Positions 23,781 through 58,755 of a DNA stretch of 64,000 nucleotides are shown one piece after another. The notes beneath the pieces were generated by a model. That model saw nothing but the letters and a program-made list of their open reading frames with translations, made no database searches and was not told the DNA's origin. Every line of letters begins with the position of its first letter. The first letter of the stretch is position 1. Source of the stretch: Cohnella kolymensis (GTDB taxonomy: Bacteria; Bacillota; Bacilli; Paenibacillales; Paenibacillaceae); the NCBI RefSeq assembly GCF_000829465.1, contig NZ_JXAL01000016.1, positions 1-64,000 of the forward strand, given 5' to 3'. The translations under genes were made by a program, and so were the position numbers.

Positions 23781-24632
23781 ATGAAAAAAGGAATTTTGCT
23801 CGTTCTGTCGTTAGTGCTGGCTTTCGCGCTTGCGGCTTGCGGAAAAAAAGAAGAAAACTCAGGTTCGAACGCGGCCCCGGGCGCAAGCCAAAGCGGCGCT
23901 CCAAGCAACACGGCTTCCGGTAAGCTGGCAGACATAAAGAAGGCCGGAAAAATCGTACTGGGTACAAGCGCGGAGTATGCACCTTATGAGTTCCATAAAA
24001 TGATTGACGGTAAGGATCAAATTGTTGGTTTCGACATTGAGATCGCCAAGGCAATCGCAGCAGATATGGGAGTCGAATTGGAGATTAAAGATATGCAATT
24101 TGACAACCTGTTGACGGAACTGAAGCTGGGCAAAATCGATTTTGTTCTTGCAGGAATGACGCCGGATGAAGATCGTCGTAAGAGCGTAGATTTCTCCAAA
24201 AACTATTACGAAGCAAAGCAAGCCGTATTCGTTAGAGCTGAAGACAAAGATAAGTTCAAAACCATGGCGGATCTTGAAGGAAAGTCTATTGGCGTACAAA
24301 TGGGCTCGACTCAGGAGAAAATTGCAAAAGGAATTAAAGATGCAAAAGTAAAGTCGCTCGGTAAAACAACAGAATTGGTTTTGGAGCTTAAATCCAAGAA
24401 AGTCGATGCTCTCATTGTGGAACTTCCCGTGGCGCAAGGCTATGTCAATAAAAATCCCGATCTGGCTTTGACGGATGTCGTGCCCGAATATCAGGACGGC
24501 GGTTCTGCTGTAGCGGTAAACAAAGGAGAGGCGGATCTACTTGCTGAGATCCAAAATTCGCTTGACCGTCTAATGGCAGAAAAAACCATCGATAAGTGGG
24601 TTGCTGAGATGACCGAATTGGCGGACAAATAA
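23781..24632 (+). CDS. Polar amino acid ABC transporter substrate-binding lipoprotein
   Basis: Type II (SBP family 3) binding lipoprotein of 283 residues. Signal peptide with lipobox ALAACG, a low-complexity linker rich in Ser/Gly/Ala (residues 25-48), then the core: GKIVLGTSAEYAPYEF, VGFDIEIAKAIAADMG, LLTELKLGKIDFVLAGMTPDEDRRKSVDFS and the VDALIVELPVAQGY hinge. The Arg/Asp residues in the RKSVDFS block are typical of amino acid binding. GGAGATGG precedes the ATG. Followed by a permease and an ATPase, so this is a complete importer for a polar amino acid such as glutamine, arginine or cystine. Confidence 0.9.
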   Translation: MKKGILLVLSLVLAFALAACGKKEENSGSNAAPGASQSGAPSNTASGKLADIKKAGKIVLGTSAEYAPYEFHKMIDGKDQIVGFDIEIAKAIAADMGVELEIKDMQFDNLLTELKLGKIDFVLAGMTPDEDRRKSVDFSKNYYEAKQAVFVRAEDKDKFKTMADLEGKSIGVQMGSTQEKIAKGIKDAKVKSLGKTTELVLELKSKKVDALIVELPVAQGYVNKNPDLALTDVVPEYQDGGSAVAVNKGEADLLAEIQNSLDRLMAEKTIDKWVAEMTELADK

Positions 24633-24654
24633 GCCGTTAACTTGGACAGGCGGA

Positions 24655-24703
24655 GGGGAAATAGAGGCGGCTATTATGAAGCGCCCCTGTTTCCCTTTTT
24701 TCA
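24655..24703 (+). terminator. Attenuating hairpin between binding protein and permease
   Basis: GGGGAAATAGAGGCG and CGCCCCTGTTTCCC pair with two mismatches and are followed by six T (24696-24701). Partial termination here would give more binding protein than permease, a common design in this transporter family. Confidence 0.6.
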
Positions 24704-24728
24704 GGGTATGAGGGGAGGACAATAAAGC

Positions 24729-25401
24729 GTGAGTTTAGCCTATAACTGGGATTTTTCTTTTTTGGATGAGTATGGTTCGTTATTTTGGGTCGGAACGAAA
24801 ATGACCTTGTCCGTATCACTTGTGGCGGTAATCGGCGGACTTCTTGTAGGGATTCTTGTGGCGCTGGTGCGGTTGTCACGAATTTGGCCGATTCGATTCA
24901 TTGGAACGACATACGTTGAAATTATTCGGGGCACGCCGCTGCTCGTACAGGTGTATTTATTTTATTACGGATTGCCGCTTTTCTTGGGCGTCGACTTAGG
25001 CATCTTTGCCGCAGCTTGTATTGCTTTGTCCATTAACAGCGGAGCATACATTGCTGAAATCATGAGAGCCGGTATCCAAGCCGTCGATCGTGGACAGATG
25101 GAGGCAGCACGTTCTCTCGGTATGAGCAGAACTATGGCGATGAGGCCAAATCATTTTGCCGCAAGCTTTTAAAAACGTTTTGCCGGCAATCGGTAATGAA
25201 TTTGTTGTCGTAGTGAAGGAATCTTCCGTGCTCTCCATCGTCGGGTTCGCTGAATTGACTTATCAAGCGAATGCCATTCGAGGCGCCACTTATTCGCCAT
25301 TGGAACCGCTGATTATTGTAGCAGGAATATACTTTGTGCTTACGTTTACGCTGTCCAAGCTTCTCGGAATCGGTGAAAGGAGGTTGAAAGCCAGTGATTA
25401 A
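24729..25401 (+). pseudogene. Polar amino acid ABC transporter permease (one-base frameshift)
   Basis: HisM/GlnP-type permease. The first frame (24729-25172) gives GTKMTLSVSLVAVIGGLLVGI, IRGTPLLVQVYLFYYGLP and the EAA-loop start ARSLGMSRTMAMR, then runs out. The second frame (to 25401) continues as ILPQAFKNVLPAIGNEFVVVVKESSVLSIVG, the rest of the EAA coupling loop and the last helices. Deleting one C of the CC at 25146-25147 gives AMRQIILPQAFKN, exactly the family pattern, and a protein of about 223 residues. GTG start with GAGGACAA upstream. The gene overlaps the ATPase start by 8 bases. Confidence 0.88.
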
Positions 25402-26116
25402 AGTGCGCGGATTGACCAAATCGTTCGGTAAAACGAATGTCTTGAATGGAATCGATGTAGACATCGCCAAAGGGGAAGTTGTCGTGGTGATCGGGCCTAG
25501 TGGTTCCGGTAAAAGCACTTTTCTGCGCTGCTTAAATCTTCTTGAGGCGCCTACGGGCGGTGAAATCGAATTTGAGGGCAAAGAAATCACAGGCAGCGGC
25601 GTAAATATCAATGTGCTTCGTCAGAGCATGGGCATGGTGTTCCAGCAGTTTAACCTGTTTCCGCACAAGACGGTAATGCAAAATATAACCCTTGCTCCCA
25701 TTGGGGTCAGGAATACACCCAGAGAGGAAGCGGAGCGAATAGGCATCGAATTGCTTCGCCGAGTCGGTCTGGAGGATAAGCGGGATGCTTATCCGAACCG
25801 GCTCTCGGGCGGTCAGAAGCAGCGAGTGGCGATTGCGCGCGCGCTGGCGATGCGGCCTCATGTCATGCTGTTCGATGAACCTACATCCGCACTCGATCCG
25901 GAGATGGTAGGCGAAGTACTCGACGTCATGAAGTCCTTGGCCCGCGAAGGGATGACAATGGTCATCGTCACGCATGAAATGGGATTTGCGCGTGAAGTCG
26001 GCGACCGCCTGCTGTTTATCGACGGCGGGGTCATTGTAGAACAGGGGAATCCACGGGACATCTTCTCGGCCCCGCAGCATCCGAGGACCCAGGAGTTCCT
26101 CAGCAAAGTGTTGTAA
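25394..26116 (+). CDS. Polar amino acid ABC transporter ATPase
   Basis: 240-residue ATPase of the GlnQ/HisP family: Walker [10 protein letters not shown]-loop [19 protein letters not shown], signature [17 protein letters not shown], Walker [22 protein letters not shown] and switch His in [16 protein letters not shown] start overlapping the permease stop, preceded by AAAGGAGG. It completes the three-gene polar amino acid importer and is followed by a strong terminator. Confidence 0.95.
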
Positions 26117-26123
26117 AACAAAC

Positions 26124-26165
26124 AACAGCTTCACTGACAGCCATTGTCGGTGAAGCTGTTATGTA
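26124..26165. terminator. Terminator after the amino acid importer
   Basis: AACAGCTTCACTGACA and TGTCGGTGAAGCTGTT form a 16-bp stem with one wobble around a 5-base loop. It lies between convergent genes and probably serves both. Confidence 0.8.
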
Positions 26166-26181
26166 TTATAGGGGCACCCAA

Positions 26182-27375
26182 TTAGATAACAAGGGGCGGC
26201 TGCTGAACTGCCGAGTCTGTCTTGAATGCGGCCTTCACCAGGTTTAACGACGGCAGGCTGTATTCGCGTGACAGGATATGTACTCGAGGAGCGACCACCT
26301 TGATTTCTTGCTCCGTTCCTTCAATGATGGCGTGATCCCCGATAATCGCGCCTTCGCCGATAATGGCTCTGCTGATCCGTACATGGTTACCGATAACGGC
26401 GTTCGGCATCACATAACTGTCGCTGATGGTGCTCTCTTGGCCGACATAGACTCCGGAAGAGATGACGGAGCGATGAACTTTTCCTTCGACGGAGCAGCCA
26501 TGCTGTATAATCGAACGTCTCAACTCACAATAGGGGTTCGTGGAAGCGCTGAAATACTTTCCGGTAGAAGCAATCGGCCATTCGAGACGGATGGGTTCAA
26601 ACCTTCCCTCGATTAAGTCCATATTGGACTCCCATAGGCTGTCTATCGTTCCGACATCCCTCCGTATCCGTCAAAAGGATAAGCGGTGAGCGGTGTTCCG
26701 GTTTGGACCAACAGCGGGATGACATCCTTGCCGAAGTCGTGACTGGAATGATCACGATACGCATCCTCAATTAAATACTTCCGCAAATCCGCCCAACGGA
26801 AAACATAAATACCCATTGAGGCCAAATTGCTTTCCGGTCTGGAAGGCTTCTCTACAAAGTCGGTAATTTTCAAGGATTCATCCGTGTTCATAATACCGAA
26901 TCGTCCGGCATCCTTCCAAGGCACCCGTTTGACCACGATCGTGGCGGAGGCGCCCTTGTGCCGATGGTATTCCAGCAATGGACGATAATCCATCGTGTAA
27001 ATATGGTCTGCGGATAAAATTAACACGTGGTCCGGATTCTGACTGTCTACATAATCGATGTTCCGGTAGATGGCATCTGCCGTTCCGCGGTAGTTTGTGC
27101 CGGTGCGGCTTGCGGGGAGTATACGAAGTCCACTTTTCTTATCGGAACCGAGCCATGCTGCGCCATCCCCAATATGGCTTTCCAGGGATTCCGATTTATA
27201 TTGAGTAAAAATTCCGATGAATGCCGGAGTTCGCGCAGTTGCTGAGTGGAAAATCAACGATGCGGTACCGCCCGCCGAAAGGAACGGCTGGTTTAGCCCA
27301 CTCGCCGGTCAGCGGCTCCAGTCTTTTTCCTTCCCCTCCGGCTAGAAGCAGGGCTATGCAAGATTCGCTTATCAT
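26182..27375 (-). pseudogene. glgC: Glucose-1-phosphate adenylyltransferase GlgC (two frameshifts)
   Basis: GlgC makes ADP-glucose for glycogen. From ATG 27375 the frame reads [48 protein letters not shown] and breaks; it resumes as [45 protein letters not shown] and FVEKPSRP, breaks again after YPFDGY, and ends with the left-handed beta-helix (hexapeptide repeats near VIGNHVRISRAIIGEGAIIGD). The first break fits loss of one ATCGG unit from a tandem pair (plus-strand 27214-27218); the second fits loss of one base next to 26663, restoring YWRDVGTIDSLWES. Repaired length is about 399 residues. No glgA, glgB, glgD or glgP is adjacent, so it is an orphan here. Confidence 0.85.
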
Positions 27376-27402
27376 TCGGAATGGATGCCTCCTGAATAAA
27401 AG

Positions 27403-28216
27403 TTAACCGTGAATTAATGACTCCGCGCCATCCACGAATACGACCGACCCGGTCACATGATCCGACTCGTCCGAAGCCAGGAACAACACCAGATTTGCAA
27501 CCTGGCGCGGCTGCCCGGCTTTATGTTTCAACGGTTGATCCCCTTCGGGGAATTCAACGGGTATTTTGATGTTCTCCACTTCAGGTCGGCGTTCGGTACT
27601 CTCTCCGATGTTCGTCTCGATTGCGCCTGGGCAGATCGCGTTCACGCGGATTTTGTACCGGGCCAATTCCAGTGCCGCCATTTTCGTAAAAGCCACTTGC
27701 CCCGCTTTGGAAGTGCTGTACGCACTGAAGCCGAAACTGGAGAATACCCGGTTCCCATTGATGGAGCTCGTGATGACAATGCTGCCGCCGCCATTCTTTT
27801 TCAGAGCGGCAATGGCATGTTTCAAGCATAGAAACGTACCTGTCAGATTGATGCTCATCGTCCGGTTCCAATCGTTAAGCTCCATCGATTCGATGGGTGA
27901 CAGCACGCCGTTGATACCGGCATTCGCGACAAGGATATCCAGACGCCCCCAATGCTCAAGCACGGAAGCTATCGCCTTTCGGATATCTTCTTCCTGCGAA
28001 ATGTCGGCTTCCAAGACCAGCGATTCAGCTCCGGCCTTCTCTATTTGCTGCTGCGCTGCTGCCAATGGAGAGCCCTGGAGGTCCAGCAAGGCGATTTTCG
28101 CGCCTTCCTCTGCCATTCGCACAGCGGATGCGAGACCGATCCCCGGATGCGGCACCCGTGACGACTGCCACCTTACCTGACAGCCTGAGACGGCCGGCAC
28201 TGTGCTGGTCAAACAT
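27403..28216 (-). pseudogene. Short-chain dehydrogenase/reductase (one-base frameshift near 5' end)
   Basis: Classical SDR. From ATG 28216 (AAGGAGG about 10 bases upstream) the frame gives LSGKVAVVTGAASG, then needs removal of one G from a GGGG run (plus-strand CCCC at 28141-28144) to continue as IGLASAVRMAEEGAKIALLDLQG. Further motifs: DILVANAGINGV, SIVITSSING, catalytic Tyr/Lys in AYSTSKAG, and RVNAICPGAIETNIG. The intact protein would be about 270 residues. The NAD(P) motif TGAASGIG and Asp after the second strand (LLDLQ) favour NAD. The substrate is unknown; the glgC neighbour might suggest a sugar dehydrogenase but that is weak. Confidence 0.85.
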
Positions 28217-28478
28217 GGGATTGGGATACCTCCTTAGGTTCATGATTCCGTTGCTTGATCACAGACTGCCGTTTATTAATCCATTACCCCGGGCAGTGCG
28301 CGTTAAACAAGATGCGCTATGTAACATTGAGCCCGATTTTCATCCTATTTTGGAACGACTTGACCTATTCATCTGAAATTTATAACTTGTCAGGCTCGTC
28401 ATGCTAGTCTGCATAATCGGCCAAGTCCCCTCATAGACATGAACCATGGAATAACCAAAGTGCAGAGGGGTGGATCGC

Positions 28479-29591
28479 ATGCGTCGTCGGATCCCATGGA
28501 TCACCGCTGTTGCCCTGCTTATTACCGTCCTGTTGGCCGGTTGCGGGAGCAAGAATGCGGATTCGATCGTGAAGGACCTGGACAAAGTCGTGGGTAAAAT
28601 GGAAAGCTATGAAGGAAGCGGCACGATGAAATTACATACCGGACAGCAGCCGCTGGAGTATGAAGTGGAAGTATGGTACCAGAAACCGCAATATTACCGG
28701 ATCGCCCTTACGAATGCCAAAAGGGACATCACCCAAATCGTGCTTCGCAACGATGAAGGGGTGTTCGTACTCACTCCGCAGCTGAACAAGAGCTATCGTT
28801 TCCAAAGCGATTGGCCGGACAACCAGGGGCAAGTTTACTTATATCAGACACTGGTGCAAAGCATCATGCTGGACGAATCGAGACAGTTGACGACAGACAA
28901 GGACACTTATGTGTTTGATGTGATGGCAAGCAATTACCAGAACGGGTCGTTTGCGCGGCAGAAAATATGGCTCTCGCAAAATGACTATTCGCCTAGACAC
29001 GTTGAAGTGACGGATACGAACGCGAACGTCATGATCGAGGTCGACTTCAAGAACTTCAAGTTCGGCAAGAAATTCGATAAATCCGCATTCGATATGGATA
29101 CGAACATGGGATCCAAGCCGGGGACGAAGCCCTCAACCGGCGCAGGAGATGGCTCAAGTCCGGATGCTACAGCGGCACCGGGTGCATCCGCATCGCCGGA
29201 AGATGCAGACGGTGTGAACGAGGAAGACGCAAGCACACTGCCTGAGCAGAGCTTGGACGTTGTGGAACCCGATCCGGAAGCGCTGCCGGTGGGCGTGCAA
29301 TTCAAGGATAGAGCGGAAGTTCAGCTCGGTGAAAATATGGGCGTGATGCTCAGATATTCGGGTACGTACGATTTCACGATCCTGGAGATGATTCCTAAGG
29401 ACCGCAAAGCTTTGAACAGTGAAGGAATCGTCCAGGACCTCGGCTTTACGGTCGGACATCTGTCGCTTGGCGATGTTAAAACCTTGACCTGGACGTATCA
29501 AGGCATAGAATATCGGCTGACGAGCGCGGATCTGCCGCAAGAGGATATGGTGACCATCGCGCAATCCATGGAGCAATCGTCAGGTAAATAA
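28479..29591 (+). CDS. ydcC: Sporulation-related LolA-like lipoprotein (YdcC/GerS type)
   Basis: Signal peptide with lipobox LLAGCG, then a LolA-fold domain (residues about 28-210: YEGSGTMKLHTGQQPLEYEVEVWYQKPQYYRIALTN start) and, after a Pro/Ser/Gly/Asp-rich linker at about 212-260, a C-terminal DUF4367-type domain. In Bacillus the ydcC gene lies directly upstream of alr, as here, and is expressed in sporulation; the clostridial relative GerS is needed for cortex handling. ATG 28479 follows GAGGGGTGG; the in-frame GTG 28470 is the alternative. The linker is longer than in short YdcC proteins. 370 residues. Confidence 0.8.
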   Translation: MRRRIPWITAVALLITVLLAGCGSKNADSIVKDLDKVVGKMESYEGSGTMKLHTGQQPLEYEVEVWYQKPQYYRIALTNAKRDITQIVLRNDEGVFVLTPQLNKSYRFQSDWPDNQGQVYLYQTLVQSIMLDESRQLTTDKDTYVFDVMASNYQNGSFARQKIWLSQNDYSPRHVEVTDTNANVMIEVDFKNFKFGKKFDKSAFDMDTNMGSKPGTKPSTGAGDGSSPDATAAPGASASPEDADGVNEEDASTLPEQSLDVVEPDPEALPVGVQFKDRAEVQLGENMGVMLRYSGTYDFTILEMIPKDRKALNSEGIVQDLGFTVGHLSLGDVKTLTWTYQGIEYRLTSADLPQEDMVTIAQSMEQSSGK

Positions 29592-29600
29592 TGGGATAAG

Positions 29601-29631
29601 AGGCCGGTCTTTAGCAGATCGGCCCCTTTTG
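29601..29631 (+). terminator. Terminator after ydcC
   Basis: GGCCGGTCT and AGATCGGCC form a 9-bp stem with one G-T pair and are followed by CCTTTT. Confidence 0.7.
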
Positions 29632-29737
29632 CTGCGAAAAGGAAAAGGTTGACTGCCTTAATTGCGTTGACAGTACCGCCCGCACCCGGTAACATTACTT
29701 TATTGTGTAGATGTACAACAGGGGTGGTGACCGGTCT

Positions 29738-30919
29738 GTGGACTGCTATTACCGGCCGACCGTGGCCGAGATTTCGCTGGATGCCCTCGGACGCAACATC
29801 GGAGCATTCCGCGAACGTTTGGCCGCCGGCACCAAATTGCTGGCTTCGGTGAAGGCCAATGCCTACGGTCATGGTGCGGCTGAGGTTGCGCGGCACGCCG
29901 TTGCCTGCGGAGCCGATTATTTGGGAGTCGCATTTTTGGATGAGGCGCTTGAACTGCGGAAAGCAGGCATTCAGGCGCCGATTCTGGTGCTTGGATATAC
30001 GCCGCCGGAAGGGTTTCCGGTTGCGCGCGAGCACAATATAACGCTTACGCTGTACCGTGATGAAATGCTGGACGCTGCACGGAGCTTACCTGAAACAGGA
30101 AAAAAATTGAAGGCCCACATCAAGATCGATTCCGGTATGGGGCGTCTTGGGCTTCTGCCGGGGCAGCAAGCGGAAGGCTTTTTGGAGCGGGCGTTTGCCA
30201 TCGGTCAGCTAGAGGTGGAAGGCTTGTTCACCCACTTCGCCAAGGCGGATGAGCTTGATAAGCAATACACCATGATGCAGGCGGAGCGGTTCTCCACCGT
30301 CGTGGACTACGTCCGCCGAAGCGGTATGCCGGTGTCGATCGTCCATTCGGGCAACAGTGCGGCCGGGATCGATCTGCCCGGGCATGTCGGCGAGATGCTC
30401 CGGCTTGGCATCAGCATGTACGGACTTTATCCGAGCAGTGAAGTGGGCACTCAAGCGATTCAACTGGAACCGGTGCTCTCTTTGAAAACAAAAATAGTTC
30501 ATGTAAAAAATGTGAAGGCCGGAGAAGGTATCAGCTACGGTTGCCGGTATTTCACAACAGGTTTAGAGACGATCGGTACACTGCCGATCGGCTATGCGGA
30601 CGGATTCAGCCGCATGTTGACCGGTAAGGCGGAAGCGCTGCTCAGAGGCGTTCGCGTTCCCGTGGTCGGGACGATTTGCATGGATCAATGCATGATCCGG
30701 GCCGGCGACGCAAGGCTGGAGGGTGAGCCCCCGATCGAACCCGGAGAAGAAGTCGTGCTGATCGGACGGCAGGGGAACGAGTTCATATCTGCAGAGGAAC
30801 TGGCCGCAAAGCTTGGTACGATCAACTATGAGCTGATCTGCATGATAGCATCTCGTGTACCGCGTATATACCAAAGTAATGGGAATGTTGCTGCTGTCAC
30901 CAATGCGCTTCTGGTATAG
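29738..30919 (+). CDS. alr: Alanine racemase Alr
   Basis: PLP enzyme that supplies D-alanine for peptidoglycan. The PLP lysine lies in SVKANAYGHGA, the catalytic tyrosine region is GEGISYGCRY, and IKIDSGMGRLG, HSGNSAAG, RLGISMYGLYPS and GTICMDQ are all present. I prefer GTG 29738 (393 residues, starts VDCYYRPTVAEISLDAL) because GGGGTGGTG lies upstream; ATG 29711 would add nine residues but has no ribosome site. Next to the NdoAI/NdoA pair as in Bacillus. Confidence 0.94.
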   Translation: MDCYYRPTVAEISLDALGRNIGAFRERLAAGTKLLASVKANAYGHGAAEVARHAVACGADYLGVAFLDEALELRKAGIQAPILVLGYTPPEGFPVAREHNITLTLYRDEMLDAARSLPETGKKLKAHIKIDSGMGRLGLLPGQQAEGFLERAFAIGQLEVEGLFTHFAKADELDKQYTMMQAERFSTVVDYVRRSGMPVSIVHSGNSAAGIDLPGHVGEMLRLGISMYGLYPSSEVGTQAIQLEPVLSLKTKIVHVKNVKAGEGISYGCRYFTTGLETIGTLPIGYADGFSRMLTGKAEALLRGVRVPVVGTICMDQCMIRAGDARLEGEPPIEPGEEVVLIGRQGNEFISAEELAAKLGTINYELICMIASRVPRIYQSNGNVAAVTNALLV

Positions 30920-53239: not shown

Positions 53240-53446
53240 AAACGCTTTAGAGTAGTATTTTCTACTGGTTTGTGCCAATTGCACCTAGACGCTTACCTCT
53301 CGGTGCTTTTCTTGTTTCTTGTGGGCCGGGTATCCAGGGTGATTGGCTAGTTTCAAAAATAAAAGTTTAACCGTTAAAGCCAAATGTCAATTTAAATCAT
53401 CTAATGATTGATAGCGATTATAGAGATAAAGAAGGTGTCGGTATCG

Positions 53447-53953
53447 ATGAGCGATGAGGAACTAATCCGGAAAGCACAAAAAGGAGACTTTCACAGCTTT
53501 GAAGTGGTCGTAATGAAACTGAAAGACAGGGCCTACCGTATTGCTTATTCCTATTTAAGAAATGAATCCAATAGTATGGATGCAGTTAGCGATGCGGTAG
53601 TAAAAGCGTTGCTGAATATTAAAAAACTAAGGGAACCCAAGTTCTTCTCGACATGGTTCATGCGCATTGTGATCAATGAAAGTAAAATTCAACTCCGAAA
53701 ACGTCAAACGACAATTGACATCGCTGATTCATTATACATACCTGGAACGAAAGATACCTCCGCTGAAGTGATGGATTTGGAGCAGACATTGAGCAATTTA
53801 CCCCCGATTGAGAGACTGATCATACAGATGAAATATTATCTGGGTTATTCTTTCGAGGAAATAGCGGATATGACGGAAATGCCGCTTGGAACGGTTAAAA
53901 CAAAACTTTATACCACTCTGCGCCAATTGCGAGTCAAGCTGGAGGTGAAATAA
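53447..53953 (+). CDS. ECF-type RNA polymerase sigma factor
   Basis: 168-residue sigma-70 family protein: region 2 (FHSFEVVVMKLKDRAYRIAYSYLRNESNSMDAVSDAVVKAL and FFSTWFMRIVINESKIQLRKR) and region 4 (LPPIERLIIQMKYYLGYSFEEIADMTEMPLGTVKTKLYTTLRQLR). ATG 53447 follows AAGAAGGTG. The stop touches the start of the next gene (TAAATG), a DUF4179 membrane protein that is the likely anti-sigma factor. SigV/SigW-like stress or envelope control is probable. Confidence 0.92.
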   Translation: MSDEELIRKAQKGDFHSFEVVVMKLKDRAYRIAYSYLRNESNSMDAVSDAVVKALLNIKKLREPKFFSTWFMRIVINESKIQLRKRQTTIDIADSLYIPGTKDTSAEVMDLEQTLSNLPPIERLIIQMKYYLGYSFEEIADMTEMPLGTVKTKLYTTLRQLRVKLEVK

Positions 53954-55429
53954 ATGGCAGCTCAGGGAAATGAATTCAACGAAGAGGACATGGACCTGTT
54001 ATTCGAGCAGACGCTTGGACACCGCATGGATGACAATCAAACGGTTGTTCCATCCGAGCTGGGTGACCGGATTCGTTCCGTCATCCGAAGCACAGCAGAC
54101 CGACAGAGGAAAAATAGACGTTGGCAGCTGAGTATCTCCAGTTCTATAGCCGCGGCAGTCATTCTCCTGGCTGTTATAGTGATTTCTCCTACACTGTCAG
54201 CATTCGCGAAGCAGTGGCTCGGCCTGCAGGTACCCGTCAGTTGGAAAACATTGTTCGCCGAATACAGCGGAATTCAAGATGCGCAGGTTAACAACTATCG
54301 GCCGATACCTCCGGTCACTGTTCAGAAAGACGGTATATCGATCACATTGGAGAATATTTACTTGGAAGAGGAGAGACTTGTTTTCTATGCAGCAATTAAC
54401 GGTGCAGTGGAAAAGCAAAGAGGATATAGAATTGCTTCATCCGACTTTCAACACGCCGGTTGGCGTATGAGTAACACGACCTTGAAAGATGAACATGGAA
54501 AGAAAATTGATGTGGCACAAATCGTCCAGACTTTAGATCCTGCTGAAGTACAGGAATTTCTGAAGACAAAGCCTGATCATCTGAATTTTGAAGTTATGGA
54601 AACTCCAACTTCGGAGGGTGAAAGGGAGCATCATTTTATGGACATTCAAGTTCCTTTCGATGGTTCGTCATTCCTGAAATCAAAGCGAATTGCTCTGGAT
54701 AATGAGCTTACTATAGAGAAAACGGTCTCGGTGGAATTGAATGAATTAACAGTTTCGCCTACGGAGATGAAGCTTAATTACACCCTGCAAAGATCTGAGG
54801 GAATGGAAATCATGATCGATAAGTACGGCTCGGAAGAAAATCCTTATATCGTGGATAAGAATGGTGACGTCTATGCGTCCAAATCGACGGGCGGTCATAG
54901 AATCGACGGTGATCGAAACGAACTCACGTTTCATCCTTCCGTTTATTTCAAATCCGGGGATGAGGCGGAGCTTCATATCGATAAAGTATGGATTACGGAT
55001 AAGAACGACCGTTTATCCTTTGACCTTTCGCTGAAGGATCAGAAGACTTTTCCGCAAACCATACAATTTCACAATCACAAAATAACGATCATGGGCAGTC
55101 GTTATGAGAACGGCCATCTCTACTTGGATATCAATAAGGCCCAGCCGGAGGCAAAGGAATTGCGGCCCTGGAAAATGGAGTTCGGCAACTATATTCTAAA
55201 AATGAACGAAGATCCCGAGTTGTTCAAACTCTATCAAGAGAAATATAAAGTATACTCCGGCCAGGCATATGGCAGATCTTATCTGAAGATCGATTCAAAG
55301 GGAAAAGAAGTTCCCGGTGTTTATCAAGTGATGATTATGGCGCCGGAACAAGATAAATATACACTGAATATTTACAGGTATGAGGATGCAGTTATCGTAA
55401 ACAAGGTCATTCCAATAACCGTTCCTTAA
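53954..55429 (+). CDS. DUF4179 membrane protein, probable anti-sigma factor
   Basis: 491 residues: about 60 cytoplasmic N-terminal residues, one membrane helix (SSSIAAAVILLAVIVISPTLSAF) and a large extracellular region in which the DUF4179 domain (WLGLQVPVSWKTLFAEYSGIQDAQV start) is followed by immunoglobulin-like beta-rich sequence. This design is common for partners of ECF sigma factors in Bacillus and Paenibacillus. It begins directly at the sigma stop codon. No classic zinc anti-sigma motif (HxxxCxxC) is present, so the mode of inhibition is not clear. Confidence 0.85.
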   Translation: MAAQGNEFNEEDMDLLFEQTLGHRMDDNQTVVPSELGDRIRSVIRSTADRQRKNRRWQLSISSSIAAAVILLAVIVISPTLSAFAKQWLGLQVPVSWKTLFAEYSGIQDAQVNNYRPIPPVTVQKDGISITLENIYLEEERLVFYAAINGAVEKQRGYRIASSDFQHAGWRMSNTTLKDEHGKKIDVAQIVQTLDPAEVQEFLKTKPDHLNFEVMETPTSEGEREHHFMDIQVPFDGSSFLKSKRIALDNELTIEKTVSVELNELTVSPTEMKLNYTLQRSEGMEIMIDKYGSEENPYIVDKNGDVYASKSTGGHRIDGDRNELTFHPSVYFKSGDEAELHIDKVWITDKNDRLSFDLSLKDQKTFPQTIQFHNHKITIMGSRYENGHLYLDINKAQPEAKELRPWKMEFGNYILKMNEDPELFKLYQEKYKVYSGQAYGRSYLKIDSKGKEVPGVYQVMIMAPEQDKYTLNIYRYEDAVIVNKVIPITVP

Positions 55430-55449: not shown

Positions 55450-55478
55450 GCCCGGATGTGCTTGTTCGGGCTTCTTTT
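55450..55478 (+). terminator. Terminator after the sigma/anti-sigma unit
   Basis: GCCCGGA and TTCGGGC form a 7-bp stem with one wobble, followed by TTCTTTTG. Confidence 0.65.
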
Positions 55479-55517: not shown

Positions 55518-56714
55518 ATGTTTTATTCCGATTGGCTATATTGGTTGTTCATTGCGTTCGTTTGCTCATCGTATTATTTGCTGCCGGGAAAAATTCGACC
55601 TCTACTCATTGTTGCGGCAGGTGCCAATTTCTATGGCTATTACGCGGGTCCTTTATTGATGCTTTTAATTACTGAGGCTTGCCTGATCGGTTGGGCTGCA
55701 GCTTTCATCTCGCGCCGCACAAAGCGGTGGTTTTTTGCCGGTGTAATAGCTGGCGCGGCTTTGGTTCTCATCTATTACAAATATAATGAGTTACTTCTTC
55801 AACCGGTTTTAAATCTCTTCTCGTTTTTTAACAAACCCTATTTGCCTCGGGCGGATCAGGTCGTACTCCCGCTTGGCATATCCTATTTCACATTCGAACT
55901 GATTCATTATCTGGTCGAGAAGAAAAAGGAGAATCTGCCCGAGCATCGCTTCACCGATTTCCTGGCGTTCGTTTTCTTTTTCCCTACATTATTCGCAGGC
56001 CCGATTAAACAATTTGAAAAGTATTTTCCACAGCTCCGTTCCCGATTCGAATGGGCGAATATGCGGTCGGGTTTGGTACTCATCGCAACCGGTCTTTTTA
56101 AAAAGCTGGTCTTAGCCGGCACACTTGATATCCTTGCACAGCCGCTATATGCGAAAGAGGGGATGGCCGCAGAACAAACGCTTATGCTCTGGGCGGCTTT
56201 GGTCGCTTATACTTTTGTGATTTACTTCGATTTTTCCGGATATTCGGATATTGCCATTGGAACCGCCAGATTGTTTGGCATTGTTCTGCCGCCCAACTTC
56301 CGTAATCCATATTTGAGTCGCAACATCGCAGAATTTTGGAACCGTTGGCATGTTTCACTTGGAGCCTGGCTCACCAAATACATCTATTTTCCGCTAGGCG
56401 GCAGCAGGCTTGCAGAGCATCGGACTTACATAAATCTCATGCTCACGATGACAGTGTCAGGTTTATGGCATGGGGCGGCTTGGCATTTTGTTGTATGGGG
56501 TATGTTTCACGGGGCCATGTTGTGCATTTACCGCTTTTATGTCAAACGGCTGAAGGGTCGAAGCTCGATTCCATTTTTATCTCCTGCTTTCACAGCTTTA
56601 GCTGTTGTATTCACGTTTTTTTGTGTGACGATCAGCCGTATCTTTTTCGTAATGCCGATTTCGGAGGGTTGGAAGTTTTCATTAAAATTACTCGGTCTGG
56701 AAAACTCGATATAG
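55518..56714 (+). CDS. MBOAT-family O-acyltransferase (AlgI/DltB-like)
   Basis: 398-residue polytopic membrane protein. MBOAT blocks: FPTLFAGPIKQFEKYFPQL, VIYFDFSGYSDIAIGTARLFG, NFRNPYLSRNIAEFWNRWHVSLGAWLTKYIYFPLGG and TVSGLWHGAAWHFVVWGMFHG with the catalytic His in WHGAAWH. Such proteins move an acyl group from a cytoplasmic donor across the membrane for polymer esterification. ATG 55518 follows AGGTGG; upstream GTG 55506 is inside that site. It starts a three-gene unit with an SGNH-type protein and a microprotein. dltA and dltC are absent, so the donor is more likely an acyl-CoA than D-alanyl carrier protein. Confidence 0.9.
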   Translation: MFYSDWLYWLFIAFVCSSYYLLPGKIRPLLIVAAGANFYGYYAGPLLMLLITEACLIGWAAAFISRRTKRWFFAGVIAGAALVLIYYKYNELLLQPVLNLFSFFNKPYLPRADQVVLPLGISYFTFELIHYLVEKKKENLPEHRFTDFLAFVFFFPTLFAGPIKQFEKYFPQLRSRFEWANMRSGLVLIATGLFKKLVLAGTLDILAQPLYAKEGMAAEQTLMLWAALVAYTFVIYFDFSGYSDIAIGTARLFGIVLPPNFRNPYLSRNIAEFWNRWHVSLGAWLTKYIYFPLGGSRLAEHRTYINLMLTMTVSGLWHGAAWHFVVWGMFHGAMLCIYRFYVKRLKGRSSIPFLSPAFTALAVVFTFFCVTISRIFFVMPISEGWKFSLKLLGLENSI

Positions 56715-56728
56715 GAGTGATTATTTCA

Positions 56729-57865
56729 TTGGCAACTTTAGTCTATCTAAAAAGTAAATTTGTTCTTAGCTTCTTGATTGCTGCCATAGGAATCACGATC
56801 ATCAATTCACTTGCGGTACCTATTGCATCGGATATGAAGGAGTATGTCGCTTCCTATGCCGACAAGGAACTGCGAGTGCCGCCATATGATTCAATCGTGT
56901 ATACACCATTGTGGGTCGAACATCTTCAAAGCGATCTGGACGGTCAAAAACCTGTAATCGGATTCTTTGGCTCATCGACGGTGTACGGCACAACAGTGAT
57001 GAAGAGTGCCAATACATCGGCCGGAGTATTCCAATCTCATCTTAAGGACCATCGGGTTTTGAACTTGGGTCTTAGCGGTGCGCGTTTTACCGATACTTAC
57101 GCCCTTGTCGAATCCATGATATACGATGTAGATGTTGTTGTTTTTGAAATTAATTACGGCATGACGGTTGTGAGCGAGAACGAGCCGGAACCCGTCGCCT
57201 ATCCGACTTTGATCGGGAAGCTCGGACACTCGATTCCAAGGGAGTGGCTAAAGTCTTTTCCGGATAAAAATGAAAATTCACTGCCAAGCCGAGCGCACGG
57301 ATGGGTGGCGTCTAATCTTATGAATCATTTTACTTTGTACAGAGAGCGGGACGTACTAAGCTATCATTTTTTCAAAACCCGAACACCGAAAGAAAAGTTT
57401 AGGAGGGAATACGATAAGAAAAAAGGTAAACTGACCCCGTACGACCCGATGTATAAACCGTATGACAAGATGTCAACAGAAAGCAAACAGCGGATCGATA
57501 AAGGATTCCACACTTTATATCATTGGAATAAGCCCTTTTCTGAACAGGACAGCTTTGGCCTTTTTATGATCGTTAAGACACTTGAGTTAATCCGGAAGCA
57601 TAACAAGAAAGCGATTTTCTATTCGGCACCGCTGGACTATGAGTTGATAAACAACCGTAAAATGCTTAATTGGAATGATTATGAGCGTGTCATGAGCGCT
57701 TATCGGAAACGAGTGGAAGAAGCCGGGTATCCATTTATCGAGTTCAATAATCGGAAGAATGTCATCCCGCACCGTCTCTACCGGGACCCCACACATTTAA
57801 CTGACGAGGGAAACAAACAGTTCGGAGAAATTCTATTTCAAAAAACTATAACTTTACTGGAGTGA
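56729..57865 (+). CDS. SGNH/DltD-like O-acyltransferase partner
   Basis: 378 residues with an N-terminal signal anchor (FVLSFLIAAIGITIINSLAV) and an extracellular SGNH-hydrolase-like domain. The nucleophile block is VIGFFGSSTVYGTT, a GxSS motif as in DltD and AlgX/AlgJ, followed by NLGLSGARFTDTY and the late catalytic DPTHLTDEGN (Asp/His dyad). It would accept the acyl group and place it on a wall polymer. TTG 56729 is chosen because AGGAGTG lies 9 bases upstream; the frame that extends to 56336 is only the shadow of the MBOAT gene. Confidence 0.85.
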   Translation: MATLVYLKSKFVLSFLIAAIGITIINSLAVPIASDMKEYVASYADKELRVPPYDSIVYTPLWVEHLQSDLDGQKPVIGFFGSSTVYGTTVMKSANTSAGVFQSHLKDHRVLNLGLSGARFTDTYALVESMIYDVDVVVFEINYGMTVVSENEPEPVAYPTLIGKLGHSIPREWLKSFPDKNENSLPSRAHGWVASNLMNHFTLYRERDVLSYHFFKTRTPKEKFRREYDKKKGKLTPYDPMYKPYDKMSTESKQRIDKGFHTLYHWNKPFSEQDSFGLFMIVKTLELIRKHNKKAIFYSAPLDYELINNRKMLNWNDYERVMSAYRKRVEEAGYPFIEFNNRKNVIPHRLYRDPTHLTDEGNKQFGEILFQKTITLLE

Positions 57866-57869
57866 GAGT

Positions 57870-58004
57870 ATGCTCAACAAAGTTCGCCAGGTATTGCTCA
57901 GTATTATAGTGACTTTGGGTTATTCAATGCTTTGGATTGCTCTGTTTTTGGGCATATTATTTTTCGCCTACGAGCCTACAGAATTTATTTATATGAAATT
58001 TTAA
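57870..58004 (+). CDS. Transmembrane microprotein with C-terminal FxYxxF acyl-shuttle motif (DltX-like)
   Basis: 44-residue protein, 4 bases after the SGNH gene, with GGAG 8 bases before the ATG. A short basic N-terminus, one membrane helix (about residues 8-33) and the tail YEPTEFIYMKF. The last six residues FIYMKF fit the FxYxxF hexapeptide found at the C-terminus of DltX, where the Tyr (here Tyr41) carries the acyl group between the MBOAT protein and the SGNH transferase. This makes a complete MBOAT, SGNH and shuttle set without D-alanine activation genes. Confidence 0.8.
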   Translation: MLNKVRQVLLSIIVTLGYSMLWIALFLGILFFAYEPTEFIYMKF

Positions 58005-58026: not shown

Positions 58027-58755
58027 ATGAAAATGAAAATGATGATCTTGGTGCTGCTAGGCATATTTTTATTATCCTGCTCTGGATTCAGTTCAGTGTC
58101 GGCAGCTTCTTCCGCCAAAAAGATGACTACTAAGGAAGTTGTCGAAAAGATACTGCATACGAAGCTGGTTCCCACGTATGCCGAGATTGAGGCAAATTCA
58201 ACGGGTTCGGGACATACAGGTATGACCATAAAGGCATGGGATAATACAATCAAAGGTCAATTCCGGACTGAAGAGAAAATAGGTGATACGATCAGCTATT
58301 CGGTCAGTTCGGGCAAAAAAACGATTACCTATACAAAAGGTGAGAATCAGGCAATTGAGTATAATGCCGGAACAACTGTTAGTCTAAACGATGCTAAACC
58401 CGTTTTGAAAGAGATGCAAGAGACAACGGTGCTAACATTCGTTGGAGTAGAAAAACTTCTAAATCGATCCGTGTACCATCTAAAAGGTAAAGGCAAAACG
58501 GAAACAATCACAATTAACAACAGAGGGCAATCTGATTCATTCAAGCATACATATCCAGATAGAGAAATATGGATAGATACAAAGACTGGATTTGTTATGA
58601 AAGATACGGAAAGGGATACACGTCTATCCATTGAAAGGTTTAAGGAAGTCGTGAAAGTTGATTTTGCGCCTAAGTTTAGTGCGGCTACTTTCAAACTGAC
58701 ACTACCTAAAAATGTAACGATTGTGAATGCAGATGATTTGAAACCTAAACAATAG
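58027..58755 (+). CDS. Exported LolA-like lipoprotein
   Basis: 242 residues. N-terminal signal with LLSC lipobox (FLLSCSG at about residues 16-22), then a beta-rich domain with GMTIKAWDNTIKGQFRTEEKIGDTISYS and REIWIDTKTGFVMKDTERD resembling the half-barrel of LolA-like or sigma-regulatory lipoproteins. It follows the acyltransferase unit by 22 bases and may be co-transcribed, which suggests a cell-surface role, but no activity can be named. GAAAGG precedes the ATG at modest spacing. Confidence 0.65.
   Translation: MKMKMMILVLLGIFLLSCSGFSSVSAASSAKKMTTKEVVEKILHTKLVPTYAEIEANSTGSGHTGMTIKAWDNTIKGQFRTEEKIGDTISYSVSSGKKTITYTKGENQAIEYNAGTTVSLNDAKPVLKEMQETTVLTFVGVEKLLNRSVYHLKGKGKTETITINNRGQSDSFKHTYPDREIWIDTKTGFVMKDTERDTRLSIERFKEVVKVDFAPKFSAATFKLTLPKNVTIVNADDLKPKQ

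Follow-up and report, generated by a model that had tools for sequence, protein, structure and literature searches.

The Dlt pathway, which D-alanylates teichoic acids, pairs an MBOAT acyltransferase and an SGNH protein with a separate membrane microprotein that ends in FxYxxF. The same three kinds of protein are encoded side by side in Cohnella kolymensis, in a stretch of 64,000 nucleotides that we call the window. This raises the question of what such a trio does where the activation of D-alanine seems to be missing. The first-pass annotation had read the locus as an acyl shuttle placed on a separate microprotein with no D-alanine activation beside it. Our results support this reading and widen it from one locus to a class.

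The gene set in the window

The open reading frames at 55518-58004 confirm the tight unit seen at first sight, with an MBOAT gene, an SGNH gene and a gene for a 44-residue transmembrane (TM) protein ending in FIYMKF. All lie on one strand, and the gaps as called are 2 nt (MBOAT to SGNH) and 4 nt (SGNH to microprotein).

55450..55471, + strand: stem-loop resembling a terminator, in the gap that separates the anti-sigma-like and MBOAT genes (9 pairs, 5 of them G-C, then TTCTTTTGTC)
55518..56714, + strand: MBOAT gene, ATG start, 398 aa (Pfam PF03062, 118.6 bits against a cut-off of 27; alignment with DltB 6bug)
56717..57865, + strand: SGNH/GDSL partner gene with an N-terminal hydrophobic stretch and blocks conserved in seven homologues
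57870..58004, + strand: microprotein gene, 44 aa, single TM segment, C-terminus EFIYMKF, proposed acyl shuttle (Tyr41)

His278 and His318 of the MBOAT protein align with both catalytic histidines of DltB (6bug), His318 being the histidine of the WHG motif. Unlike MBOATs of the fused type, the protein has neither their C-terminal TM helices nor their motif, and its last residues are GLENSI. The SGNH protein scored 21.9 bits with Lipase_GDSL_2, below the Pfam cut-off of 32.9. It nevertheless carries the serine and Asp-x-x-His of SGNH proteins, as S87 (G-x-S) and D357/H360 (D-x-x-H) are invariant in seven homologues, and its block I and V residues are also present in eight partners of other split systems. 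Its start may be either GTG 56717 or the in-frame TTG 56729, which lies 11 nt past AGGAG and by reading better matches the N-termini of relatives. The microprotein gene has GGAG 7 nt upstream of its ATG, and its product matched nothing in NCBIfam and nothing in Pfam beyond chance level. Two AlphaFold single-protein models, each made with the rows of the window, L039 and L040, had a mean pLDDT of 47.8 for the SGNH protein and 41.0 for the MBOAT protein, too low to locate the tail.

An ECF-type sigma factor gene and an anti-sigma-like gene (53408-55429) lie directly upstream of the set; the latter has DUF4179 and DUF5643 matches, both below cut-off. A sigma-like gene and a second gene, identified by eye, also precede a fused MBOAT at locus L074. 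The terminator-like stem, a consensus match of a kind found at 10 sites in the region against 4.7 expected, suggests that the MBOAT set is a transcription unit apart from the upstream genes. Downstream, 22 nt past the microprotein gene, a signal-peptide-like protein of no assigned family with a weak LolA-like score is encoded at 58027-58755, and a reading of the relatives revealed no recognisable counterpart next to their sets.

The source genome (4.34 Mb, 34 contigs, 100% complete) holds two MBOAT genes. The second, on another contig (33), encodes 495 aa with the C-terminus FLYYRF and is followed by a gene whose 423-aa product matches DHHW (203.4 bits) and ALGX, the pair lying at L124:5884-8639. 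As the motif is fused in this second MBOAT, fused and split layouts coexist in one cell.

Separate and fused motifs at MBOAT loci

We next determined where the motif resides in related loci. A microprotein was called by a single rule, namely a same-strand TM segment ending in F.Y..F and a stop, up to 1.5 kb downstream or 2.6 kb upstream of the MBOAT gene, as the locus allowed. Short MBOATs without a tail (377-428 aa) had a separate F-x-Y-x-x-F microprotein at each of 46 distinct loci, of which 28 belong to the window's family and 18 to eight other family-level groups of the phylum. These correspond to 47 split rows, since one stretch of DNA is represented twice, as L015 and as L040 (Paenibacillus sp. 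TCA20). The long relatives (461-503 aa), whose lengths do not overlap with those of the short type, had the motif fused in 24 of 24 cases and a separate microprotein in none, with about 1.2-1.5 kb of DNA covered per side. In the loci examined, the fused and the separate motif are strictly complementary. The association of the microprotein with MBOAT genes, expected under the first-pass annotation, was borne out and is confined to tail-less MBOATs.

All these loci were chosen or returned by similarity to a split MBOAT, with repeats of one place dropped before counting, and we therefore added 20 further MBOAT matches from the phylum, including the three remaining short frames, which are fused-tailed fragments at contig edges. 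Nineteen carry a fused tail, and the sequence of the twentieth stops short of its C-terminus; downstream of these 20 MBOATs no separate microprotein was present. The tail was also fused in all eight plasmid-borne MBOATs of named organisms from five phyla, taken from the 30 rows listed of 77 and 80 matching records. Three tandem MBOAT matches lie on contig 5 of genome G1104 (about 24000-30300), and the two that were read (L143) have fused tails. Applied to dlt operons with upstream DNA, the same rule found DltX in eight of nine. The ninth, L134, yielded no DltX within its DNA. Eight more DltB loci, none of which shows DltX, were too short to hold it.

Could the microprotein be a chance reading frame? 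This was ruled out because a TM segment with F.Y..F and a stop occurred near 46 of 46 tail-less MBOATs but near none of the 24 fused ones, and the antisense strands of all MBOAT loci, scanned by the same F.Y..F rule, contained none. A frameshifted fused MBOAT was also rejected, as the SGNH gene sits between the MBOAT and microprotein genes in the window. Codon comparisons agree with a protein-coding gene. Among pairs of 12 equal-length family copies, which are not independent, codons with a single difference were nonsynonymous in 302 and synonymous in 924 cases in the gene frame, compared with 1062:213 and 1178:147 when the two alternative frames are read. The microprotein frame is under purifying selection, and the microprotein is a real, conserved gene.

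All orthologues examined conserve FxYxxF, as the first-pass annotation required. FIYxxF is present in all 47 split rows, 28 of which have FIYMNF, and the preceding residue is Glu in 28 rows and variable in the remainder. In 14 microproteins tested, a hydrophobic stretch of 19 residues scored 2.2-3.1. The C-terminus likely lies outside the cell, since positive charges are found mostly N-terminal to the TM stretch in 10 of these 14 (the others being L060, L064, L075 and L109).

The split set is a class spread across a phylum, more than a one-genome oddity. Within the window's family, 185 of 295 genomes match the window MBOAT at an E-value of 1e-20 or better. Among the matches listed, 20 other genomes are 58-60% identical with open frames of 400-417 aa, and the remaining ones have at most 46% identity and frames of at least 453 aa. 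All 20, together with two Paenibacillus genomes of another collection, encode all three proteins, with the microprotein separate and its C-terminus FIYMNF. In a sample of the order, with the best four candidates per genome scored, the short type was found in 22 of 392 genomes (716-826 bits), and the only other match at E 1e-80 had 275.6 bits and a 474-aa frame. Among the 37 genomes listed for the source genus, the set occurs in this genome alone, and the window copy branches first within the family clade of the MBOAT tree described below. Such rarity in the genus suggests horizontal arrival or repeated loss.

Beyond the family, 102 of 398 genomes in a phylum sample match at E 1e-45. Eighteen genomes of eight other family-level groups contain a short MBOAT and a separate microprotein of 36-80 aa as called, with C-termini such as FSTGGYQTFIYQNF or FSTGVEARFIYTDF; the microprotein of L112 has no standard start codon. 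Genes in these families usually run SGNH, MBOAT, microprotein, compared with MBOAT, SGNH, microprotein for the family of the window. One non-family carrier belongs to a class in which six of ten genomes match at E 1e-100, and each of these six is among the genomes counted above. A microprotein profile run over 398 class genomes matched in two, the source and one of its family; the other carriers were found through the MBOAT only.

Relation to the Dlt pathway and to fused systems

A genome-wide search of the 39 carrier genomes, in which the best 44-48 candidates were scored for genomes with many AMP-ligases, found DltA over the cut-off in none of the 21 family carriers and none of the 18 others. 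Matches at E 1e-60 were present in 20 of the 21 family carriers (324.2 bits at best; most of the frames are as long as NRPS genes), and none of the 18 others reached E 1e-100. The best DltA match in the source genome scored 140.4 bits against a cut-off of 559.85, and Pfam DltD (PF04914) had no match there. The absence of dltA and dltC, read at first from the locus itself, thereby extends genome-wide for dltA. Six AMP-ligase matches below the DltA cut-off do occur in the source genome, so another activated donor is possible.

The three proteins differ from their Dlt counterparts as well. The window MBOAT scored 195.9 bits with the DltB equivalog model TIGR04091 (cut-off 375). Among solved structures, two DltB sequences were the best hits of an MBOAT profile, followed weakly by HHAT. 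The spacing from His to WHG is 37 in all 47 split rows and in 23 of 24 fused ones, compared with 44 in 16 of 17 DltB sequences (the 17th was not parsed). The difference is a 7-residue, Lys-rich insert of DltB between the two catalytic histidines, which is absent from the split MBOATs; the excerpted text of PMC11035591 places DltC contacts (Lys312, Arg317) in this stretch of DltB. All 47 split rows contain the motif P[LM]GG[SNT][RK], as do 16 of 24 fused rows, and it occurs in none of 17 DltB sequences. In motif and spacing the donor side of the split MBOATs is as in the fused type. The window microprotein had no match to Pfam DltX (PF12459, cut-off 25), a model that gave 64 and 66.8 bits for two true DltX proteins and at most 14.1 for seven split microproteins. 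Gene order in dlt operons is also unlike that of the split set. The first-pass label of a Dlt-like system therefore holds for the three-part wiring and fails for the protein families, because all three proteins fall short of the Dlt family models used.

Profile comparison related the window-type SGNH proteins to those of other split systems (prob 99.7, score 187, 316 columns) and to six partners of fused systems picked by a rule that missed many partners (prob 94.7, score 63), whereas the comparison with DltD gave a prob of 8.4 (score 30, 73 columns). The SGNH proteins of other split systems are not sharply apart from DltD, since they show a distant match to it (prob 86.1, score 51, 88 columns). 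Using two SGNH profiles seeded by 15 proteins, mostly from the same split rows, we found a match adjoining the MBOAT in 46 of 47 split rows. The exception is the window, whose own SGNH protein seeds a profile and whose called frame starts outside the distance rule. No match at E 1 was obtained for the SGNH profile among solved structures.

A tree of 70 MBOAT rows, with tail columns removed, near-identical kin dropped and no root inferred, contained clades of 10 DltB sequences (100/100), 19 family split MBOATs (100/99) and 24 fused MBOATs (100/99.4). The other split MBOATs fall in a fork without settled branching, and a single clade of all 36 split rows was not rejected (p-AU 0.275). Split forms group with fused forms, away from DltB (100/100), and a single change suffices to account for the fused and separate states.

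Proposed mechanism, alternatives and meaning

The reading that we consider probable is a self-contained, three-protein envelope O-acyltransferase, in which acetyl would travel via Tyr41 and the SGNH serine to a wall polymer without loading by DltA. The MBOAT protein would take an acyl group on the cytoplasmic side, most likely acetyl from acetyl-CoA. Within the membrane, its His318 would serve to load the group onto Tyr41 of the microprotein's FIYMKF tail. Outside, the tail would hand the group to Ser87 of the SGNH protein, and this protein would transfer it to a wall-polymer hydroxyl, with a secondary wall polysaccharide as one possible acceptor. In systems of the PatA/AlgI type the MBOAT itself includes the final TM helices and the tail; here the microprotein would take their place, as DltX does in Dlt. 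By analogy with PatA and DltBXD, we infer the acyl-Tyr chemistry, the donor and the topology, and O-acetylation is the presumed reaction. In the excerpted text of PMC12148441, PatA acetylates the Tyr of its fused FXYXXF in an acetyl-CoA-dependent manner, PatB accepts acetyl from a peptide, and the fused pair PatA1B1 acts on secondary wall polysaccharides.

To look for clues to the target, we read 15 neighbourhoods of split sets, with nine proteins scanned by profile and the remainder examined by eye; as only ORFs of at least 90 aa were considered, a short carrier gene could be missed there. No gene was seen to recur outside near kin. One of the 15 neighbourhoods, L117 (10081-13039, minus strand) from another family of the phylum, has genes for CsaB and DUF5693 just upstream of the split set. 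The gene for CsaB, a polysaccharide pyruvyl transferase (TIGR03609, 291.4 bits, cut-off 213.1), shares the strand of the MBOAT gene and lies two genes ahead of it, and the DUF5693 gene precedes that for CsaB. CsaB acts on secondary wall polysaccharides, so its position hints at such a polymer as the target, although this is a lead only; naming the polymer from one neighbourhood is a guess. A polysaccharide deacetylase gene lies beside the set on the other strand at L125, and one glycosyltransferase-like and one PAP2 gene lie near it at L116. The other neighbourhoods had no visible tie to a wall polymer.

Several alternatives share much of this evidence. The set could be what is left of a Dlt operon that kept DltB, DltD and DltX after losing DltA and DltC, either functionless or fed by an unlinked D-alanine carrier. 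The identical wiring, the sub-threshold TIGR04091 score of the MBOAT, the similarity of the FIYxxF hexapeptides to those of DltX and the distant DltD match of SGNH proteins from other split systems would all fit such an origin. Yet DltB forms a clade of its own, its insert is missing in 47 of 47 split rows, the window-type SGNH proteins barely register against DltD (prob 8.4), the DltX model separates true DltX from the split microproteins, and coding constraint has acted on the microprotein. A Dlt remnant is accordingly quite improbable.

A working shuttle might also carry something other than acetyl, such as the acyl group of a different acyl-CoA, or an aminoacyl group supplied by a carrier whose loading is encoded at another place in the genome. 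The AMP-ligases of the source genome that fall below the DltA cut-off are compatible with this, as is a fatty-acid-CoA-ligase-like gene on the opposite strand beside two relatives outside the window's class, L114:9493-11421 and L121:5229-7157 (AMP-binding, 218.8 and 244.6 bits). This gene could hint at a longer acyl chain, or may be a chance neighbour in acyl-CoA-rich genomes. No same-strand activation gene was recognised in the 15 neighbourhoods, most of them read by eye, and the donor-side sequence of the MBOAT is that of the fused type, which makes a non-acetyl group unlikely. Finally, the microprotein might be a structural or regulatory membrane subunit whose Tyr carries no acyl group; a regulatory role of DltX and DltD helices is considered for DltB in the excerpted text of PMC11035591. 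Two observations speak against such a role, and we regard it as very improbable: the microprotein is strictly complementary to the fused tail, in which PatA has an acetylated Tyr, and all 47 rows keep FIYxxF next to a variable preceding residue.

Besides Dlt, two kinds of known system come closest to the split set. PatA/PatB and other fused pairs acting on alginate, cellulose or secondary wall polysaccharide likewise consist of an MBOAT and an SGNH protein without activation genes and share the donor-side sequence; they differ in having the motif and last TM helices on the MBOAT instead of on a separate protein. The OatA-type AT3-SGNH proteins, as covered in the excerpted text of PMC12148441, have a similar acyl relay from Tyr to Ser across the membrane, but use AT3 instead of MBOAT within one fused protein, with the Tyr between TM helices. 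A free shuttle microprotein without DltA looks like an undescribed layout of an envelope acylation machine, because the excerpted text of PMC12148441 (2025) describes MBOAT/SGNH pathways other than Dlt as lacking a DltX-like microprotein and having the hexapeptide fused. Among the open-licence papers listed by literature searches, no title or abstract start describes a free shuttle outside Dlt, and a subscription paper may exist.

The split class also bears on how these machines arose. DltB, which likewise works with a separate X protein (the microprotein), is apart from both split and fused forms in the tree. A tentative scenario, which we would sooner doubt than accept, is that a three-piece machine of MBOAT, SGNH and X came first, with Dlt adding D-alanine loading later and the fused MBOATs descending from one fusion of X. 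The separate shuttle would then be an ancient, widespread arrangement that did not originate with Dlt. This scenario is drawn from a sample of one phylum, picked by similarity, and from a tree without an inferred root. The split class makes the origin of the Dlt pathway testable.

The published model, in which the tail is part of the MBOAT outside Dlt, is broken by the split class, whose shuttle is free and whose carrier genomes yield no DltA over the cut-off. An MBOAT gene that seems truncated can thus belong to a complete system whose small partner is easy to overlook. In these systems the acyl-Tyr carrier would be a small protein of its own, called at 36 to about 80 residues, that can be added, swapped or mutated independently.
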